Source of the DNA: Paenibacillus polymyxa M1
GTDB taxonomy: Bacteria; Bacillota; Bacilli; Paenibacillales; Paenibacillaceae
NCBI RefSeq assembly: GCF_000237325.1
Contig: NC_017542.1
Coordinates: forward strand, 4,250,501-4,314,500
DNA: 64,000 nucleotides
Reading direction: 5' to 3'
The position numbers were made by a program, and so were the translations under genes. Below the pieces are notes generated by a model. It had not been told where the DNA came from. It saw nothing but the letters and a program-made list of their open reading frames with translations, and did no database searches. Within the stretch, counting starts at the first letter, position 1. The number at the start of each line of letters is the position of its first letter. Below are positions 207-7,828 of this stretch, in pieces.

Positions 207-217
207 GGCTTATTGCC

Positions 218-302
218 TCTCCCCATTTATCAACTAGACCCTCATTGAGAAGCTAAAACACCAAATGCATCCTGTATTCAATCTTTCCTTACTGACAGTG
301 AA
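218..302 (+). repeat. Direct repeat copy 1 (~84 bp)
   Basis: This segment matches 5339-5420 in the same orientation. Both contain CATTTATCAACTAGACCCTC and CTTACTGACAGTG, with about 90% identity and two one-base gaps. The two copies flank the five-gene peptide locus. This copy fills most of the gap between the stalk-domain gene and the M23 gene; nothing else is evident in the gap. The repeat could be a duplicated leader or an attachment or recombination scar. Confidence 0.8.
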
Positions 303-429
303 CAGTAATCAACATGTGTCGAGACGATGTCTCGCTTAAGTTAAAAACACTTGCTTTGAAGAACAATACACGATACGGAAAACCTGACAAACAAATTCTC
401 AAACCGACGTTCTAAGGAGATATTCATTT

Positions 430-1362
430 TTATCGAAAAATAAGCGTTTGATTAAGCAATAAATCATTTCTTTTTAAGTAATTACCATTAAAAGTAATAG
501 GTATCGAAGTTCCATTGAAGTAATCTCTCTTATTGTCATGTTTTATAGCATGAATATGAAGATGCGGCTCACTGCTGTAACCTGAGTTTCCTACTTTCGC
601 AATTTCTTGTCCAACCTTGACAAAATCATTTTTCTTAACTAACAGACTATTTTTCTTCAAGTGTAACAGCAAAATATTATATTCTTTGTGTTTGATGATA
701 ATCATATTTGTATTACTACGACCCAGGGAGTTTGGCACATTATCTTCTACTCCATCCACAACTTCGATAATTCTACCCTCAACCGGACTATATACTGAAT
801 CATTATAAATGGGATAGGATTTTAAAGATTCAGGATTATCAAATTTTCCTTTTCTTGAACCTAACGGGGTGAGCTTGGTTATATCCACCGCATATTTCAG
901 AGTACGATGCGAAAAGTGATAGTTCATAGATGAACTCATTCCACCATTCACTACCTCGTAAGCCCCTCCTTTCAAAGGGAACGCTAAATCGACTGCATCT
1001 TCGTGTTTAGGAGTGGATGTAATGTATGAAATATTAAATAAAATACATATAAAAACTTGATATATCGCTAATAAACCATAAAGAGAAAGGAATATTCGTG
1101 TTTTTCTATTTAAGCCATTAAATTTAAAAGAGCGTAAAGTAACCATTTGACGGAATAAAGAACATCCAAACAATACGATGCAAACCGGACGTAAATAATA
1201 ACTAATTTCTGTCCAATCATTTATGAATAAAATCATGAACGTATATGCACTTGTAAACAAAGTGTGAATATACCACGAAATACGATTTTTAAATGGAAAG
1301 TAAGCCATAATCCAATAAAGTATAAGTGGAATCAGCAGCATTTTTACAAAATAAAAAAACAT
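430..1362 (-). CDS. Membrane-anchored M23 (LytM-type) metallopeptidase
   Basis: The 310-residue protein has about four hydrophobic segments in residues 1-125 (FFYFVKMLLIPLILYW first) followed by an extracytoplasmic M23 domain. Zinc-ligand motifs are visible: NYHFSHR...YAVDI early in the domain and HLHIHA near its end, with VYSPVEGRI and VGQEIAKVGNSG between them as in LytM peptidases. M23 enzymes usually cut glycine-rich or stem peptides of the cell wall, and some process secreted peptides. The start codon follows directly after the stop of the upstream hydrolase gene (TGAATG), with an AAGGAAG ribosome site inside that gene, so the two are translationally coupled. It is the last gene of the small-peptide locus. 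A role in maturing, releasing or resisting the peptide is inferred from position only. Confidence 0.85.
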   Translation of the reverse strand: MFFYFVKMLLIPLILYWIMAYFPFKNRISWYIHTLFTSAYTFMILFINDWTEISYYLRPVCIVLFGCSLFRQMVTLRSFKFNGLNRKTRIFLSLYGLLAIYQVFICILFNISYITSTPKHEDAVDLAFPLKGGAYEVVNGGMSSSMNYHFSHRTLKYAVDITKLTPLGSRKGKFDNPESLKSYPIYNDSVYSPVEGRIIEVVDGVEDNVPNSLGRSNTNMIIIKHKEYNILLLHLKKNSLLVKKNDFVKVGQEIAKVGNSGYSSEPHLHIHAIKHDNKRDYFNGTSIPITFNGNYLKRNDLLLNQTLIFR

Positions 1363-2487
1363 TCAATTTCTTCCTTTATCATATGATAATTTTTTACTTA
1401 CCTCTTTTTGAAATTCAGTATCCGTTAATAATTTATGAAAAAATAAATCCAGCTTCTGCTTGAGCCAAATGTGATCCACCCCAGAATCATCTTGAATAAA
1501 CATGGCTAGTTGAATGTCATTTCCTTCCCGATCCGTACAATATAAAGCCTCTGTTAGGACAGAAATGGTAGACCCACCTTTGTTTCCGAACTCTATTAGC
1601 TTGGAGTTATCCACCTGTCGCTGAATTAGCATTTTTAGATATGGATTTAAAGTAGAAGGAACCAACTCCTCCTTGTGTATAAGCTTCATGAGGTAAGCAT
1701 ATTCTTTAGTCGTTGAACGAGGAAGCTTGCGCGATTCCAGCACTTGAAGCCTTCGTGCATAATTCTGCTTGGTGTTCCATTTCTGAATACATCCTAACCC
1801 CTTATCACTATTTAGTATCTGGTGAATTTCAATGGATTTTTCCATGTATTCTTTGTAGGTCATTTCACTTATTTTTTGTATCGATTCTTTAAATCCTATT
1901 TTATCTACTTCTTGGATATAAGAAGACATTAAACCCGCAGATGAAAAAGGAAAAATTTTATCATGTAACGAAAGTGAGAGTTTATTTATATTTTCATTTA
2001 TCTCATCTAATCCCATTTTATCCATCAGAAATTCTGTATTGGCATTAGAACTGTAAGCTAACATACCGTGAGCAATTTCAAATAATGTAATTTTTCCTTG
2101 AACCTCTTTATGATTTGACTTAATCCATTTGATCCAGCTATTATGAGCGTTGCCATCAGAACCAGGAATATAAAATTTATTTAATTCCTCTAAATCCACA
2201 AGTTCATGTTCATCTAACAGCTTTGCCGCTACTTGGCGAGCAAACTCAATAGCGATGATCACTTTCGCAGTGCTGGCAAGCGGCATTTTAACTTCTGAGT
2301 TGTAGCTGATTTTCTCCATACCATTTTTGATCATATACAAAGAAGCTTTACTCGGATTTTCCTTCAAAAAGCTTAGAACATCTATTTCTGTTTTCTTATT
2401 ATTTTGGCGCTTCGCAATGAGCAAAAACAGGATACATATGAAAACAAATATTAAAGTTATAGCTACTAACAATAAGATTATTTGCAT
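1363..2487 (-). CDS. Membrane-anchored class A beta-lactamase-like serine hydrolase
   Basis: From the start at 2487 the protein has 374 residues: an N-terminal membrane segment (about 2-25) and a serine hydrolase domain. The domain carries an SxxK motif (S72-T-A-K75), an SSN triad replacing the usual SDN, and GNKGGST in the place of the KTG box. This is the arrangement of class A beta-lactamase/D-Ala-D-Ala peptidase folds. The start was chosen because AAGGAGCAAAG lies just before it; an upstream in-frame start at 2526 would overlap the previous gene by 29 bases and lacks a good site. The gene is 10 bases downstream of the HTTM gene and abuts the M23 gene, so it is in the operon. Resistance to antibiotics is not the obvious role in this context. 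Processing of or protection from the small secreted peptide is possible but unproven. Confidence 0.8.
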   Translation of the reverse strand: MQIILLLVAITLIFVFICILFLLIAKRQNNKKTEIDVLSFLKENPSKASLYMIKNGMEKISYNSEVKMPLASTAKVIIAIEFARQVAAKLLDEHELVDLEELNKFYIPGSDGNAHNSWIKWIKSNHKEVQGKITLFEIAHGMLAYSSNANTEFLMDKMGLDEINENINKLSLSLHDKIFPFSSAGLMSSYIQEVDKIGFKESIQKISEMTYKEYMEKSIEIHQILNSDKGLGCIQKWNTKQNYARRLQVLESRKLPRSTTKEYAYLMKLIHKEELVPSTLNPYLKMLIQRQVDNSKLIEFGNKGGSTISVLTEALYCTDREGNDIQLAMFIQDDSGVDHIWLKQKLDLFFHKLLTDTEFQKEVSKKLSYDKGRN

Positions 2488-2497
2488 ACTTTGCTCC

Positions 2498-3838
2498 TTA
2501 ATGGTGAAGTTCACATAAATCGTCACAGTTCCCTACAGGAATCACTTTTCTTTTAGAAGCTATATAATCATACAAATAACCGCCTATACCCATTTTTTTG
2601 AAAATGATTATAAAGGGAACCGCCCACCATAGATACGGTATTCTTGTACAAATTTGTGCAATAGAGTCAATTCCGCGGTGTATTCTACTGGGATCATTCA
2701 GTGAGAAGCTATGCATTCGCCTTTGTAATTCATCAACATCTAATTTGTATGCTTGAACCAATGAAGAATTCCGAAAACTAACAAGCCGTAGCATTCTAAA
2801 ATAATCCAGCTTGTACAAATAGTCTTTTATATTTGTACAGACAGGACACCAACCATCATAGAAAACCAGAATTTGTTTGTGTTGAAAGCTTACATATCCT
2901 AATCTTCTTGTTTTTCTTCGAATTGTAATTGTTATTTTCCGGAAACTGATCTTTATAAAATGGTATAACTTTTTATATTCTTGATCCGTAAACAACAATA
3001 ATTCCATAACAATCATAATTAACGAAAATGTCAGCAAACCCATTCCTATAGCAATACCTATATGAAACAATATCATGGCAATAACTACAAACGGTTTAAG
3101 CCTCTTATTAATCACAGCAAAAGGGAATGCAATTTTAATAATTATAGATAAATAAGTGAATAGAATGGTGAGTCCAACATAATGGTTAACCATATAATCC
3201 AAAATAGGTCTGCTAAACTCTCTCACTTGAGATATATAATAAAGTGCTGTTCCGTTTTGCCACATTTCGCCCATAAGCTGGTACATTCCTGAGAAAAAAT
3301 AAACAATACACAGTTGTATAATACAAAAAAGTACTGCAAAATTGTGGATTATCACGGATAACTTATAGAGTAAAGAGTCTTTCGAGTCTTTTCCACGTGA
3401 GTTGTTCATTTTAGAATCCAAAGAGAAATAGGCAGTGTTATTGGTGAACAACAGAAAAAACATATTCACTATAAGTAAGTTGTCTCCTCCGTCACTAATA
3501 TGAAAAGAGCGAACATACAATGAATAAAAAAATAAGTAGGCTAGAATTGAAAAAAGACGGCCTTTATATCCTATTAAATAAAAAATAGTAACTATAATTC
3601 CTAGGTGATAGATAAAGTCAAAAAATAAAGCTGATGAATTCAAATTATATAAAGACCATGTTAATGACTTGTACCCAGTAGAATAAATATTAATTCCAGA
3701 TTCGTGCCAAAAAAAGTATCTTTGTTTATAATGAATAAAATAATTGAAAAGTAATATCAACCCAATACATATCCGAAGGATACTTGTACCAATAAGAAAG
3801 CGTTCATTCATAAAAAAATTACGGTAATTCAACAACAT
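2498..3838 (-). CDS. HTTM (SdpB/VKG-carboxylase-like) membrane protein fused to a DCC thiol domain
   Basis: The 446-residue polytopic protein has two parts. Residues 1-300 hold about six or seven membrane segments with landmarks typical of the HTTM family (RICIGLILL, SDGGDNLLIVN). That family includes vitamin K-dependent gamma-carboxylase-like proteins and SdpB of B. subtilis. Residues 325-430 form a DUF393/DCC domain, seen in LVFYDGWCPVC with its CxxC redox pair, plus MHSFSLND and RIHRGIDSI. SdpB is known to be required for maturation of the SdpC toxin, and DCC domains are thioredoxin-like. The start overlaps the upstream DUF5819-like gene by 20 bases, indicating tight coupling; an alternative start lies at 3814. 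The fusion suggests one enzyme that both modifies and redox-handles a secreted substrate, but no substrate is proven. Confidence 0.85.
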   Translation of the reverse strand: MLLNYRNFFMNERFLIGTSILRICIGLILLFNYFIHYKQRYFFWHESGINIYSTGYKSLTWSLYNLNSSALFFDFIYHLGIIVTIFYLIGYKGRLFSILAYLFFYSLYVRSFHISDGGDNLLIVNMFFLLFTNNTAYFSLDSKMNNSRGKDSKDSLLYKLSVIIHNFAVLFCIIQLCIVYFFSGMYQLMGEMWQNGTALYYISQVREFSRPILDYMVNHYVGLTILFTYLSIIIKIAFPFAVINKRLKPFVVIAMILFHIGIAIGMGLLTFSLIMIVMELLLFTDQEYKKLYHFIKISFRKITITIRRKTRRLGYVSFQHKQILVFYDGWCPVCTNIKDYLYKLDYFRMLRLVSFRNSSLVQAYKLDVDELQRRMHSFSLNDPSRIHRGIDSIAQICTRIPYLWWAVPFIIIFKKMGIGGYLYDYIASKRKVIPVGNCDDLCELHH

Positions 3839-4529
3839 CCTTTACAACTCCTTTCCAATCATATACGACATTCTCTTCTTTCACTTTAAAATGAAGATCA
3901 TTCCGCTTTGAATATGGAATCGCATCCGATATTGAGGTCATAAACTGGACATCAGTTATTTCATGTTTTAAAAACTCCCTTTTTGCAAACGCAGAAGCAT
4001 AGCGATAAATGATTTGTTCAACTTGATCCGAATCTTTTTCTAAAGAAGCATTTATTTCTTTGGATAAATTTTCTTTTCTTGATATTTTATCCATTAATTT
4101 ATATGTTAGGTCATCTTTCCCTCCTATATATAATTGATGTATGTATCCACTTCCAATTCTGAGCATCCTATTATAAGGTGAAAATACTGTCGTCTCATTC
4201 GTCCTAATCATAGGTTCAGTAACATCATACCAATTGCTTAAAACAGTTTTGGTACTGCCCTCCTCCTTATACTTCACACGTACATATAATTTTAGATTTT
4301 GAGTCATAGGCTGGGGAGCAAATAGATGCCAGTTTTGTTGAAAAAACCGTCCAACATAGTTATCAGTTACTGATTTCAATGAAACAGAGACCGGGTTAAG
4401 CGGTCCAGCGTGAAGTAAAATAAAGAAGAAATGAACCATCAAGAACAACGATAAAGAGAATAACGTAGCATTTAAAATACACGCTTCACTTTTTTTTTCA
4501 TTTAAGAAATCACCTCTTTTTAATAACAT
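3819..4529 (-). CDS. DUF5819-like (SdpA-like) membrane-associated protein
   Basis: The protein has 236 residues with one membrane segment near residues 18-42 (FSLSLFLMVHFFFILLH) and an extracytoplasmic domain. The signature QQNWHLFAPQP directly after the anchor is characteristic of the DUF5819 family, small proteins that accompany HTTM-domain genes. SdpA of the B. subtilis SDP system has the same topology and neighbour, so SdpA-like is a fair working name. It overlaps the following HTTM gene and lies 47 bases after the peptide gene, with a strong hairpin between. The start is uncertain because the AAAAGAGGTG ribosome-site-like sequence lies after this ATG and points to no in-frame start. Role inferred: part of the peptide maturation complex at the membrane. 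Confidence 0.7.
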   Translation of the reverse strand: MLLKRGDFLNEKKSEACILNATLFSLSLFLMVHFFFILLHAGPLNPVSVSLKSVTDNYVGRFFQQNWHLFAPQPMTQNLKLYVRVKYKEEGSTKTVLSNWYDVTEPMIRTNETTVFSPYNRMLRIGSGYIHQLYIGGKDDLTYKLMDKISRKENLSKEINASLEKDSDQVEQIIYRYASAFAKREFLKHEITDVQFMTSISDAIPYSKRNDLHFKVKEENVVYDWKGVVKDVVELP

Positions 4530-4569
4530 CAGGGAGAGAGAAACATAAAAATCTGATCCTCTCCCTGAT
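4528..4569 (-). promoter_or_regulatory. Intercistronic hairpin after the peptide gene
   Basis: ATCAGGGAGAG at 4528-4538 pairs perfectly with CTCTCCCTGAT at 4559-4569, an 11-bp stem with a 20-base loop. It sits between the stop of the small-peptide gene and the next start codon, which lies in its base. No T-run follows on the minus strand, so it looks like an RNA-stabilising or partial-attenuation hairpin rather than a full terminator. Such hairpins often raise precursor-peptide expression above that of the processing genes. Confidence 0.7.
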
Positions 4570-4576
4570 ATTTCAG

Positions 4577-4894
4577 CTATTTATCAAAAATTACATCTGC
4601 ATTCTCTACATCACTGCTAGAAACACCTGTACCTAATAGACTTCCTAAGCGGGTCGCTTCTCTCAGAGCATCCTTGTTAGCTTCATAAGCTGCTTTACCA
4701 ACTTGTACTGCTTTACGAGCAAGGGAGGCTATTGCTTGAGGCTCAACAGCAGCACCATTTGCATTCGCGCTAATTAAAGGAGAAGAATTTCCAGAGGAAA
4801 CGTCATAATCAGAAGCGTAAGAAGCGCTTAAACTTACAGTAGAGAAGGCTGTGATGGCTAGAGCCAGACTAAGTATTGTTAATTTTTTCTTCAT
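4577..4894 (-). CDS. Small secreted peptide precursor
   Basis: The 105-residue product starts with a signal peptide (MKKKLTILSLALAITAFST... to about SYA, residue 27). A Ser/Asn/Ala-rich spacer follows, then a predicted amphipathic helix around residues 52-90 (SLARKAVQVGKAAYE, EATRLGSLLGTG) and an acidic tail. There is no cysteine, so it cannot form the disulfide of the SDP peptide. A perfect AGGAGG site lies before the ATG. It is the first gene of the five-gene leftward locus and is followed by a hairpin, the usual place of a structural toxin or signalling-peptide gene. The helix is rich in Lys/Arg and Ala, compatible with a membrane-active peptide. I do not recognise a named family; the antimicrobial role is inference. 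Confidence 0.7.
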   Translation of the reverse strand: MKKKLTILSLALAITAFSTVSLSASYASDYDVSSGNSSPLISANANGAAVEPQAIASLARKAVQVGKAAYEANKDALREATRLGSLLGTGVSSSDVENADVIFDK

Positions 4895-5210
4895 AGATAA
4901 TTCCTCCTAAAATGGTTAGTAACAAAATAATTTCAATCTCTTAGTTTTATAACTTTTATATTACTATTATTTAATATAATTACTTATTATATCACTCCCT
5001 TCCATATTTTATATCTTATTTTCCCTTGCCAAAAATCATAAACATAAATTTTTGGTAATTAAAATTAAAAATTATTATCTTAGTCCAGTCACGCTTCATT
5101 TTAAAATCCATTAAGAAAAGAAAACAGCAATCTCTACAAACCCCATCAAACTCTGTGCCTTAAATAGTTTCATGTCTACATTTGGTCTACAATTAAGGGT
5201 GATTAAAAGC
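4895..5210. other. AT-rich gene-free stretch upstream of the peptide gene
   Basis: No credible gene is seen. The part next to 4894 is very AT-rich and must hold the promoter of the leftward peptide locus, but several overlapping -10-like boxes make a single choice unsafe. No strong operator or riboswitch fold was noticed. Confidence 0.5.
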
Positions 5211-5274
5211 AAAAACCCGCTCAATGAGCGGATTTCAGTATAAAGACGTGGGGAGTTGAACCTCTGTCCCAAAC
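5211..5274 (-). pseudogene. Decayed tmRNA (ssrA) 3'-end-like fragment with terminator
   Basis: On the minus strand the sequence reads TTTGGGACAGAGGTTCAACT followed by CCCCACGTCTTTATA. This resembles the T-arm and acceptor end of Bacillota tmRNA (GGTTCGACTCCC...CGTCTCC) with several mismatches and no CCA-compatible end. Directly after it comes a hairpin, CCGCT/AGCGG at 5217-5231, followed by a T-run (the AAAAA of 5211-5215), like a native tmRNA terminator. The tag ORF and the 5' part are absent. Integrases commonly target ssrA 3' ends, so this may be an old attachment-site remnant. The match is judged by eye. Confidence 0.45.
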
Positions 5275-5338
5275 TTTTAATATACATTAATTGTTATTAT
5301 CAGTGTTCTTCAAGCCATATGTATCAGACTTGAGGAGC

Positions 5339-5420
5339 TCTCTCCATTTATCAACTAGACCCTCATTGAGGAGCTAAACACCAATGCATTCTGTAATCAA
5401 TCTTTTCTTACTGACAGTGT
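5339..5420 (+). repeat. Direct repeat copy 2 (~84 bp)
   Basis: This is the second copy of the repeat at 218-302, in the same orientation and about 5.1 kb away. It abuts the tmRNA-like fragment on its left. The remaining bases up to 5554 show no supported gene. Confidence 0.8.
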
Positions 5421-5554
5421 ACATCACTCCTCATACTCTTGTGTGGTGACAATGATTGCCGTATTTTGGGCCATCTATCTGGCATCCGAATTTTTATTAC
5501 ATCATTTCAGCAAACTGTCATTCTTAATACTTTTTTATTAAAAAGTGATCGCAT

Positions 5555-6079
5555 CTATTTTTCACTAAAGCTTTTGGCCCATTCAGCAACCCTACGGCTA
5601 CTTTCTTCTTCTGACAAATCCTCGATCCTGGTCATAATAGACCATCTTACTCCACAAGGATCCAATATACTTGCGAATCGATCACCTGAAACAAAGTTTG
5701 CAACGGGTTCCCTTACTTTCGCTCCTCTTGCTACCGCATTTTCAATGACCTGATCCACATTCATTACGTAAATTCCGAAAGAATAACACGCATTTCCTTC
5801 ATCTGGCGGCAAGACCAATTGATATGTCGGATTCGCTGCTCCCAGCTGCAAAAAACCATTTCCAAAATCTAATTCCGCATGAACAATGATTTTATTGCCA
5901 TTCTCATCAGGTAATTCAGTAATATCCTTAACCCTTGCATTGAAAACCGCTTTATAAAACTCTATTGCTTCCGAAGGATTCTTCACGGTAATAAACGGGG
6001 TAATAGATGTAAAGCCGTTGGGTATTCCCTTCTTTGTATATTTGCCTGACACTCCCACATATTCTCTGCTTTCAGTCAT
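5555..6079 (-). CDS. VOC-family (glyoxalase/PhnB-like) protein
   Basis: The 174-residue protein carries a vicinal-oxygen-chelate fold. SITPFITVKNPSEAIEFYKAVF marks the first beta-alpha unit, and GIYVMNVDQVIENAVARGAK with SGDRFASILDPCGVRWSI marks the second. The DP-G-RWSI ending followed by an RIEDLSEEES tail is typical of the PhnB-like branch, whose members are metal-dependent or binding proteins of mostly unknown substrate. It lies 51 bases downstream of the DJ-1/PfpI gene on the same strand, so both may share a transcript. Cytoplasmic; substrate not predictable from sequence. Confidence 0.85.
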   Translation of the reverse strand: MTESREYVGVSGKYTKKGIPNGFTSITPFITVKNPSEAIEFYKAVFNARVKDITELPDENGNKIIVHAELDFGNGFLQLGAANPTYQLVLPPDEGNACYSFGIYVMNVDQVIENAVARGAKVREPVANFVSGDRFASILDPCGVRWSIMTRIEDLSEEESSRRVAEWAKSFSEK

Positions 6080-6130: not shown

Positions 6131-6757
6131 TCATTGGATTGAATTCATCAACTCATAGTAATGTTTGGATGCACGAGTCTTATTAAGACTATACCAAGCC
6201 TCTAATGTTTTAGAAGAAAACACGCCCAGAGCTTTCAACACGTGTACGGAGAATTCCAACGGAGCCATTCCAGATGCAGTGATTAGTTTTCCATCCGTTA
6301 CAGCAGACTCCATTTTGTAATACTTTTCGCCCGTATAGGTGGGACAGATCATTTTAAGGTATTCCAGATCATTGCTTGTATGCGAACGTGAATTCAGCAG
6401 TCCTGCCTGGGCAAGTCCCATGGTAGCACCACAAATCGCCGCCACCCATATACCTTCCTCTAAACATCTCTCAACAATTTTTAAAATCGGTTGGTGAATG
6501 GTTTCTGTCCATGTATTTCCACCGGGTAAAATCAATAAATCTGTGCTTTTAATACTGCACTCATCTAGTTTGATGTCAGGCAGGATTTTCAATCCGCCCA
6601 TGGTTGTGACAGGAGTCTTTTCCATTCCCACGGTAACTATTTTGGATGGGAACAGCCCCTTTTTATAATATCTCCCCGAATTCAGTTCGGCAGTTAAGTA
6701 ACCGATCTCCCAGTCTGCCATAGTGTCAAATACATAAAGATATGCCGTACTATTCAT
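6131..6757 (-). CDS. DJ-1/PfpI family protein (type 1 glutamine amidotransferase-like)
   Basis: This is a 208-residue DJ-1/PfpI domain protein. The nucleophile elbow AAICGATMGLA places the reactive cysteine at about residue 109, and LLILPGGNTW supplies the upstream Gly-rich loop. Members act as proteases, glyoxalases/deglycases or amidotransferase-like proteins; the exact reaction cannot be assigned. Its length is normal for the family. It precedes the VOC gene, a pairing compatible with reactive-carbonyl handling. Upstream lies a WYL regulator on the same strand, but a strong terminator at 6831-6867 separates them. Confidence 0.85.
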   Translation of the reverse strand: MNSTAYLYVFDTMADWEIGYLTAELNSGRYYKKGLFPSKIVTVGMEKTPVTTMGGLKILPDIKLDECSIKSTDLLILPGGNTWTETIHQPILKIVERCLEEGIWVAAICGATMGLAQAGLLNSRSHTSNDLEYLKMICPTYTGEKYYKMESAVTDGKLITASGMAPLEFSVHVLKALGVFSSKTLEAWYSLNKTRASKHYYELMNSIQ

Positions 6758-6830
6758 TCACAGGTTCTCCTTATTTTATAATTTATCAAGTGATACCAAC
6801 CTCGGTAACCCGTGATTATCCCCATTATAA

Positions 6831-6867
6831 AAAAGCTTCACTGACATCTGCTGTCAGTGAAGCTTTT
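6831..6867 (-). terminator. Rho-independent terminator of the WYL regulator gene
   Basis: AAAAGCTTCACTGACA at 6831-6846 pairs with TGTCAGTGAAGCTTTT at 6852-6867, a 16-bp perfect stem with a 5-base loop and a T-run on the minus strand. The stem touches the stop codon of the regulator gene. Confidence 0.9.
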
Positions 6868-7828
6868 AGCGCTGATAATATTCTACTAACTCCGACGCAA
6901 CAGCAACTAGTTTTTCCTTCAAGCTCTGTGGTTCGATGACTTGAATGGATTTCCCATAGGGTAGGAGTAAATAAGGGACATATGTATGAAGTGATTTTTC
7001 CTCAAGCAAAAAGATGGCTTGGTTAGCGGTTCGTTCTTTCAGATGATGCCCCAAAAACCAATGCAGACATAAGTCATCCAATGCCTCTGACTTGCCTTCG
7101 ATCATTAAAGAAATTAAACCGTCCTTGCCCACTAAATCAGGTAACAGATTTTGCATAAAAAATTCACGAGCCGAAAAAGCCTCAGGCCGCTTAAATAGGC
7201 TTGGAGTACGCTTAATCTGTAGAATCCGATCTGCCCGAAAGCTACGGATCTCATTCCTTAGGTGACAAAATGCAACAGTATACCATTTGTTGTTCCAGTA
7301 AACCATTCCGTAGGGGTCTATCACCCTATTCTTGGGTTGTTCTTCATGGCTTGTGCGATAATCCATTTCAACAGAGAATTCGTTGGCTACAGCCTGCTCC
7401 AATTCTGCCAATATCGGCTGTAGAGAAGGATCTCCCATGCGATTTATCACTTCAAATCCGGCTAAATGACGGCTAAGTATACTTTCCTGCTCTTGATTCG
7501 AATACTTTTTCAATTTTGACGTCGCATTGCTTAATGCCTCACTCAAAGGGTATCCAGCTTCCTTTGCAAAAACAGCAGCATGAAGGAGCGCCTTTTTTTC
7601 CTCCATATCAAATAGTAAAGGTGCTCTAATAAAATTATTCAGCAAGCGATACCCGCCATGATGGCCCGTGTCGGATATTATAGGCACTCCACTGGCGCAT
7701 AGTGCGTCAATATACCGATAAACTGTCCTTATATTTATTTCTAGCTTTTCGGATATTTGTTTTGCGGTCATTTTCACACCCGAATTCAGCATCCATAAAA
7801 TGGCCAGCATATTATCGTTTTTTGGCAT
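6866..7828 (-). CDS. YafY-type transcriptional regulator (HTH + WYL domain)
   Basis: The 320-residue protein has an N-terminal winged helix (residues 1-57: MLAILWMLNSG, MTAKQISEKLEINIRTVYRYIDAL). A WYL domain follows (about 140-235), seen in VDYRTS-like MDYRTSHEEQPKNRVIDPYG, YWNNKWYTVAFCHLRNEIRSF and RADRILQI, and then a C-terminal WCX-like extension. WYL regulators bind ligands or nucleic acids and control stress, metabolism or defence genes. It could regulate the DJ-1/VOC pair just downstream, although a terminator lies between. Its target is not shown by the sequence. Confidence 0.88.
   Translation of the reverse strand: MPKNDNMLAILWMLNSGVKMTAKQISEKLEINIRTVYRYIDALCASGVPIISDTGHHGGYRLLNNFIRAPLLFDMEEKKALLHAAVFAKEAGYPLSEALSNATSKLKKYSNQEQESILSRHLAGFEVINRMGDPSLQPILAELEQAVANEFSVEMDYRTSHEEQPKNRVIDPYGMVYWNNKWYTVAFCHLRNEIRSFRADRILQIKRTPSLFKRPEAFSAREFFMQNLLPDLVGKDGLISLMIEGKSEALDDLCLHWFLGHHLKERTANQAIFLLEEKSLHTYVPYLLLPYGKSIQVIEPQSLKEKLVAVASELVEYYQR

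Follow-up and report, generated by a model that had tools for sequence, protein, structure and literature searches.

A DUF5819-HTTM operon of Paenibacillus polymyxa M1 and a candidate class of secreted peptides with a conserved C-terminal tail

We describe a five-gene operon of Paenibacillus polymyxa M1 that belongs to a recurrent bacterial neighbourhood whose precursor peptides are otherwise little alike yet conserve a short C-terminal tail, consisting of a hydrophobic residue followed by Phe, Asp and then Lys, Arg or another residue, a feature first reported here. The architecture of the operon is like that of the SDP cannibalism-toxin operon, probably with a different class of substrate, and the family is apparently undescribed. 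We regard it as probable that the operon specifies an exported propeptide that would be recognized by its tail, handled by a DUF5819/HTTM protein pair and matured by a hydrolase. The broader proposition, that such loci represent a widespread and undescribed class of secreted ribosomal peptides combining a C-terminal tag, an SdpA/SdpB-like reader pair and an interchangeable protease drawn from four families, seems to us evenly poised.

The window analyzed here is the whole stretch of 64,000 nucleotides (C1:4250501-4314500; contig NC_017542.1) in a 6.2-Mb genome; loci and genomes used for comparison are designated with L and G numbers. A previous sequence-only reading had proposed five tightly coupled leftward genes, and all five were confirmed as open reading frames (Table 1), four of them carrying domains named by Pfam. 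Their spacing supports coupling, with the DUF5819 and HTTM genes overlapping by 20 nt and the M23 peptidase gene directly abutting the serine hydrolase gene. For the latter, the ATG at 2487, which gives a product like its database twin, is preferable to the first listed start (GTG at 2526). The HTTM-DCC protein is 96% identical to its Paenibacillus farraposensis counterpart. The stem-loop between the precursor and DUF5819 genes has a centroid energy of -23.4 and a minimum free energy of -26.2 kcal/mol (z -2.64; 3 of 200 shuffles equally stable); it may cause the enzymes to be translated less than the precursor.

Table 1. Features of the operon and its flanks, in window coordinates.
Feature	Coordinates	Strand	Product or basis
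Precursor peptide	4577..4894	-	105 aa; ORF call, database matches, tail conserved across loci
C-terminal tail codons (VIFDK) and stop	4577..4594	-	Strict tail pattern across loci
Stem-loop 3' of precursor stop, spanning the listed DUF5819 start codon	4526..4571	-	Folding and shuffles
DUF5819 protein	3819..4529	-	236 aa, an alpha/beta domain preceded by an N-terminal helix; PF19136 (5.2e-23); SdpA profile match, 89%; model pLDDT 87.8
HTTM (SdpB/VKGC-like) membrane domain with a DCC1-like CPVC domain fused at its C-terminus	2498..3838	-	446 aa; TIGR04033, SdpB profile, VKGC structures, PF04134 DCC1-like (1.2e-14)
Serine hydrolase of the class A beta-lactamase fold, hydrophobic helix at the N-terminus	1363..2487	-	374 aa; PF13354 Beta-lactamase2 (1.8e-14)
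M23 peptidase with hydrophobic N-terminal part	430..1362	-	310 aa; PF01551 M23 (1.1e-13)
Direct repeat flanking cassette, left copy	217..315	.	91% to right copy
Direct repeat flanking cassette, right copy	5338..5434	.	Operon absent from this site in a relative

The precursor starts with a signal-peptide-like N-terminus (approximately residues 1-28), which is followed by a spacer, Pro52, an Ala/Gly-rich core, an acidic linker and the tail V-I-F-D-K. It contains no cysteine, as had been noted, and matches no Pfam family at E values up to 1; its six database matches at E <= 0.01 include three named ones, all from Paenibacillus. The amphipathic basic helix attributed to it is weak. The window core has a charge of +2 and is amphipathic relative to shuffles (p = 0.017), and a net positive core is found in 54 of 69 precursors of the family; amphipathicity at p < 0.05 is restricted to 19 of the 69, and the core is not reliably amphipathic across the family. 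Where one locus encodes two precursors, their divergence can be localized: the two of P. massiliensis are identical at 24/30 signal positions and 5/6 tail positions, versus 18/55 in between. Two further pairs are less telling, with 67/85 identities in the middle part for L042, and with 32/70 in the middle and just 3/6 in the tail for L062. Upstream of the intact operon of L017, a second precursor with a different core lies next to a small DUF5819-like fragment (6302-7008), a sign of local duplication.

The shared ending of the small ORFs upstream of DUF5819 reads VIFDK in the window and IFDK, VFDR, YFDR, AFD, VFDQ or VFDN elsewhere. To quantify it, we looked upstream of the HTTM gene for a 55-175-aa ORF ending in xFD or xFDx, and applied this strict test to 92 of 94 loci, excluding two that gave no HTTM match (L020, and L019, in which the DUF5819 frame is partial and the precursor match weak). 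The set is dominated by Streptomyces and includes a true SDP locus (L014) as well as five near-copies (L022/L002, L023/L017, L024/L015, L027/L018 and L029/L021). The strict tail was found in 67/92 loci, against 0/90 for downstream ORFs on the same strand and 1/92 for upstream ORFs on the other strand. In the 69 different precursors that pass the strict test, F-D is followed by R in 26, K in 22, no residue in 10, N in 4, Q in 3, L in 2 and H in 2. A looser pattern positioned through the DUF5819 domain recovers 75/92 loci, three of which (L011, L066, L074) each list an additional, spurious second ORF. The remaining 17 give no tail match even under the loose pattern: they comprise variant ends (EFAR in L010, VIFNK in L021/L029), the true SDP locus, a locus truncated by its contig end (L045), one on a 5-kb contig (L091), five Oerskovia loci, and L012, L048, L052, L067, L089 and L100. 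The window shows the features of the tailed group, with adjacent DUF5819 and HTTM genes and an upstream small ORF that has a signal-like N-terminus and the F-D tail. The conserved tail could alternatively serve anchoring or folding.

The search for a conserved neighbourhood that had been proposed as a check bears out conservation of the gene set across phyla. We scanned 84,980 genomes with an HTTM profile and confirmed 91 stretches, the best 80 of which come from Bacillota, many Streptomyces and other actinobacteria (including Microbacteriaceae, Knoellia and Oerskovia), together with one Chloroflexota, two armatimonad-type MAGs, one Myxococcales, one Eremiobacterota and one Myroides. The neighbourhood itself recurs in Bacillota, Actinomycetota, Chloroflexota, the two armatimonad-type MAGs, plasmids and one viral contig. 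With the plasmid, viral and own loci added to the scan, 90/92 loci have a DUF5819 frame next to HTTM, the exceptions being the true SDP locus and the locus cut by its contig end, a recurrence far beyond chance. Within the window's family, PF19136 occurs in 7/295 genomes, its own included, with six above the cut-off; in the class of a Streptomyces locus it occurs in 48 of 246. Plasmid copies of the pair were found in Virgibacillus, Macrococcus and Streptomyces, and also in a B. subtilis record that lacks a tailed precursor. The full order of precursor, DUF5819, HTTM/DCC, serine hydrolase and M23 is seen in L002/L022, L016 and L017/L023, in L015/L024 with an M23-like frame of merely 53 aa, and in Gracilibacillus L031 with the HTTM split into two frames. 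The contig classed as viral (L021) carries the VIFNK end and a class A-like hydrolase, and its frames are the same as those of Thermoactinomyces L029; this system is possibly prophage-borne.

Refuting outcomes named in advance had been random variation among precursors and the occurrence of the enzyme pair without a small secreted gene. The first is refuted by the tail, which is kept; the second does occur outside the peptide clades, where 30 of 31 actinobacterial loci have the pair without a tailed precursor. These loci were sampled by DUF5819 with 1.5 kb of flank, 30 being each genome's best match and the other being L134. HTTM is adjacent in 31/31, and the only tail belongs to L134, the same locus as L050; the HTTM proteins mostly end their W-x-x-G motif in YP, not YI. 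Some contigs of the tailless loci (L133, L135-L163) have two DUF5819 matches close by. Oerskovia likewise has pairs without a tailed precursor (L092-L095, L097), and the gene upstream of them is, from its sequence, presumably related to beta-ketoacyl synthases.

We then mapped the presence of the tail on an HTTM tree of 103 rows, which took 13 of 30 tailless control loci and omitted near-copies, L014 as a peptide-type row, L031, L045, L098 and L101. The label requires 8 changes, versus a shuffled mean of 31.4, and 0/500 shuffles were as low. Twenty of the 31 tailless rows fall in a single 21-row branch (support 80) with one tailed row, and the remaining 11 are dispersed over the tree; four of these (L010, L021, L028, L039) have variant ends. 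Most tailed rows belong to a Bacillota group (11/15 rows) and an actinobacterial group (51/54). Since this is a quick tree with long branches, its deep order is uncertain. The abundance of tailless pairs and the clustering of the tail label indicate that DUF5819-HTTM is a general pair and that the tailed peptide is limited to some clades.

In B. subtilis SDP (SdpABC, SdpI) and its paralogue YitPOM/YitQ, as in the window, a precursor gene stands beside genes for two membrane proteins, an HTTM protein resembling SdpB and a small one resembling SdpA. The likeness to SDP put forward in the sequence-only reading is well supported by profile-profile comparison, in which HTTM aligns with SdpB at a probability of 99.95% (E 5e-38) and DUF5819 with SdpA at 89% (E 2e-6, over 85 aligned columns including an N-P ... 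Q-x-W-x-x-F pattern), versus 0.1% for a control comparison of DUF5819 with SdpB. Judged by these profiles, the DUF5819 and HTTM proteins show distant kinship with SdpA and SdpB, respectively. The curated families draw a narrower boundary. The HTTM part scores 66.2 bits against NCBIfam SdpB (TIGR04033), below the cut-off of 178.4, and Pfam gives this half no name at E values up to 1. The position of SdpA (PF17418/TIGR04034) is taken by a PF19136 protein with no SdpA match in Pfam or NCBIfam. The precursor, unlike SdpC, has no Pfam or SdpC (TIGR04032) match, no cysteine and an F-D tail, its sole NCBIfam match being a weak one to another family (E 0.095), whereas the true SdpC of Niallia scores 100 bits. 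The locus also differs in its extra hydrolase and in having no SdpI-type immunity gene, the genome's only PF13630 match (E <= 0.001) lying at 971 kb and the locus at 4.25 Mb. Failing these curated tests, the window is an SDP-like variant and not an SDP member, and we think that, in outline, it probably works like SDP.

Other known systems share parts of this arrangement. Linaridin clusters (such as that of corynaridin, crdG/crdE), as described in PMC9927463, combine an HTTM protein, an alpha/beta hydrolase and a small peptide gene; the window differs in its hydrolase families, the signal-like N-terminus of its precursor and the conserved tail, and no linaridin name appears among its Pfam or NCBIfam matches. 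Like the ClbP-type and CAAX-type prodrug peptidases of colibactin and didemnin, the window has a beta-lactamase-fold serine hydrolase putatively dedicated to precursor activation, although the precursors in those systems are made by assembly-line enzymes. In the open literature searched, with subscription papers and preprints mostly outside its scope, we found no paper on DUF5819 and, by title, nothing on this gene set among the works listed for SdpA, SdpB, SdpC, HTTM or linaridins; the open HTTM-domain literature found concerns human GGCX and the linaridin corynaridin.

Of the 75 loci with a tail under the looser pattern, 66 have a hydrolase gene no more than 3 kb downstream; none was found in the other nine. 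Four families fill this slot, namely class A-like and class C-like serine hydrolases, transglutaminase-like proteins and CAAX proteases, the last in both armatimonad-type loci. Catalytic motifs, assessed by pattern, are present in 50/51 class C-like and 10/10 class A-like members, and the transglutaminase-like proteins retain Cys in 9/9 and His in 8/9. The STAK, SSN and KGG motifs reported for the window enzyme are all present, and the Ser and Lys of STAK and the whole of SSN and KGG are invariant in 36 aligned sequences; the enzyme has the fold of class A-type enzymes and scores 22 bits against the NCBIfam class A beta-lactamase, below its 200-bit cut-off. M23 genes on the same strand were seen only next to class A-like hydrolases, as an accessory of Paenibacillus- and Gracilibacillus-type loci. 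In many Streptomyces loci (e.g. L042, 10430-12037) the hydrolase gene is followed by one for an FAD-dependent oxidoreductase, and in Microbacterium L049 such a gene comes directly after HTTM.

The mechanism we favour would begin with export of the precursor by Sec and removal of its signal peptide. The DUF5819/HTTM membrane pair would then recognize the conserved tail behind the acidic linker, with the DCC domain, as its fusion and adjacency suggest, presumably supplying redox equivalents to the pair. The dedicated hydrolase, in the window the class A beta-lactamase-fold serine enzyme, would trim or release a small, Ala/Gly-rich, mostly cationic peptide, and M23 would play a local, ancillary part, perhaps by helping the product to cross the wall. 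The mature peptide is probably antimicrobial and, like SDP, would most likely target the membranes of competitors or siblings.

The role of the hydrolase admits other readings. That the two hydrolases replace the immunity gene, as had been suggested, is unproven, and the four-family slot fits peptide maturation at least as well. If DUF5819 and HTTM alone matured the peptide, the hydrolase, with M23 in Paenibacillus, could protect the producer by destroying or blunting the peptide or its effect on the wall. Such a role would agree with the location of the genome's only SdpI-family match, about 3.3 Mb away, and with the absence of a conserved immunity gene among the neighbouring unlabelled genes that were clustered. 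Moreover, 43/51 class C-like enzymes have no hydrophobic segment, nor do the nine transglutaminases in their N-terminal half, so that several may act in the cytosol and not on an exported peptide, and the short serine hydrolases could there attack peptide that re-enters. Prodrug activation nevertheless has precedents in two of the four families: PMC9889268 describes ClbP as a peptidase with a C-terminal three-helix transmembrane domain that activates colibactin, and PMC10811503 describes DidK as a CAAX-type protease that cleaves didemnin prodrugs. Eight class C-like Streptomyces members (506-550 aa) show by hydropathy an N-terminal transmembrane, catalytic and C-terminal transmembrane order resembling that portrayal of ClbP. 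We consider self-protection unlikely. Equally centred on the hydrolase is the idea that the tail is a sorting signal and that the enzyme acts as a transpeptidase, coupling the peptide to wall or membrane or joining its ends to give an anchored or circular product. Conserved C-terminal tails often serve sorting or transpeptidation, and serine beta-lactamase-fold and cysteine transglutaminase-fold enzymes both form acyl-enzymes. We know of no CAAX-type protease acting in this way, however, and the tail lies at the extreme C-terminus with no transmembrane segment behind it, unlike in sortase substrates. We consider this reading quite unlikely.

A third reading turns to the chemistry of HTTM, which might use quinol-driven chemistry resembling that of vitamin K-dependent gamma-carboxylase (VKGC) to modify the conserved Asp or a residue near it, with DCC renewing the cofactor, and so define a new class of modified ribosomal peptides. 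At E about 1e-6, the HTTM profile aligns with structures of VKGC, suggesting a common membrane domain, though the match is confined to the membrane part of the carboxylase. The VKGC lysine in A-G-V-K-K context, which we take to be Lys218, aligns with a column in which 77 of the 92 HTTM rows have Lys, 14 have Gln and one has a gap. Lys218 acts as a base according to PMC9146348. The Gln rows are those of the window's clade (Gln187 in the window), where the tail is nonetheless kept, so that, if the alignment is right, carboxylase-type chemistry would be unnecessary for the tail system; SdpB, which is HTTM-like too, is described with SdpA as required for SdpC processing in PMC6818787. This reading strikes us as improbable. 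DCC, fused to or beside HTTM in 35/92 loci, fits a role in cofactor renewal; one of these loci, on a Niallia plasmid, has DCC beside true SdpA, SdpB and SdpC genes, which makes it a companion shared by window-type and SDP-type loci, and its pairing with a cysteine-free precursor is thus not the peculiarity it had been taken for.

Should the tail-recognition mechanism hold, the tag would allow substrates to be found although their cores belong to no sequence family, revealing hidden precursor peptides beside DUF5819-HTTM genes, and SDP-type logic would extend from Bacillus to Streptomyces, Microbacteriaceae, Chloroflexota and others. SdpA/SdpB chemistry would also become more testable, as a small tagged substrate with a regular partner enzyme is perhaps easier to work with than SdpC, and the products, if antimicrobial, would be a new source of leads.

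The operon is an accessory cassette. It is flanked by direct repeats 5.12 kb apart that are 91% identical over 86-88 bases, and a relative has the empty site (L122, G294), in which the left flank runs to about window position 279 and is joined directly to the sequence from position 5556 onward; in another genome (L126, G575) the operon start is present at 96% identity over 0.9 kb. Beside the cassette, window positions 5210-5278 are 79-81% like two other genomic places, at which ARAGORN calls a tmRNA, doubtful at one (L119) and ordinary at the other (L120); this segment is likely what is left of a tmRNA 3' end that served as an integration site.
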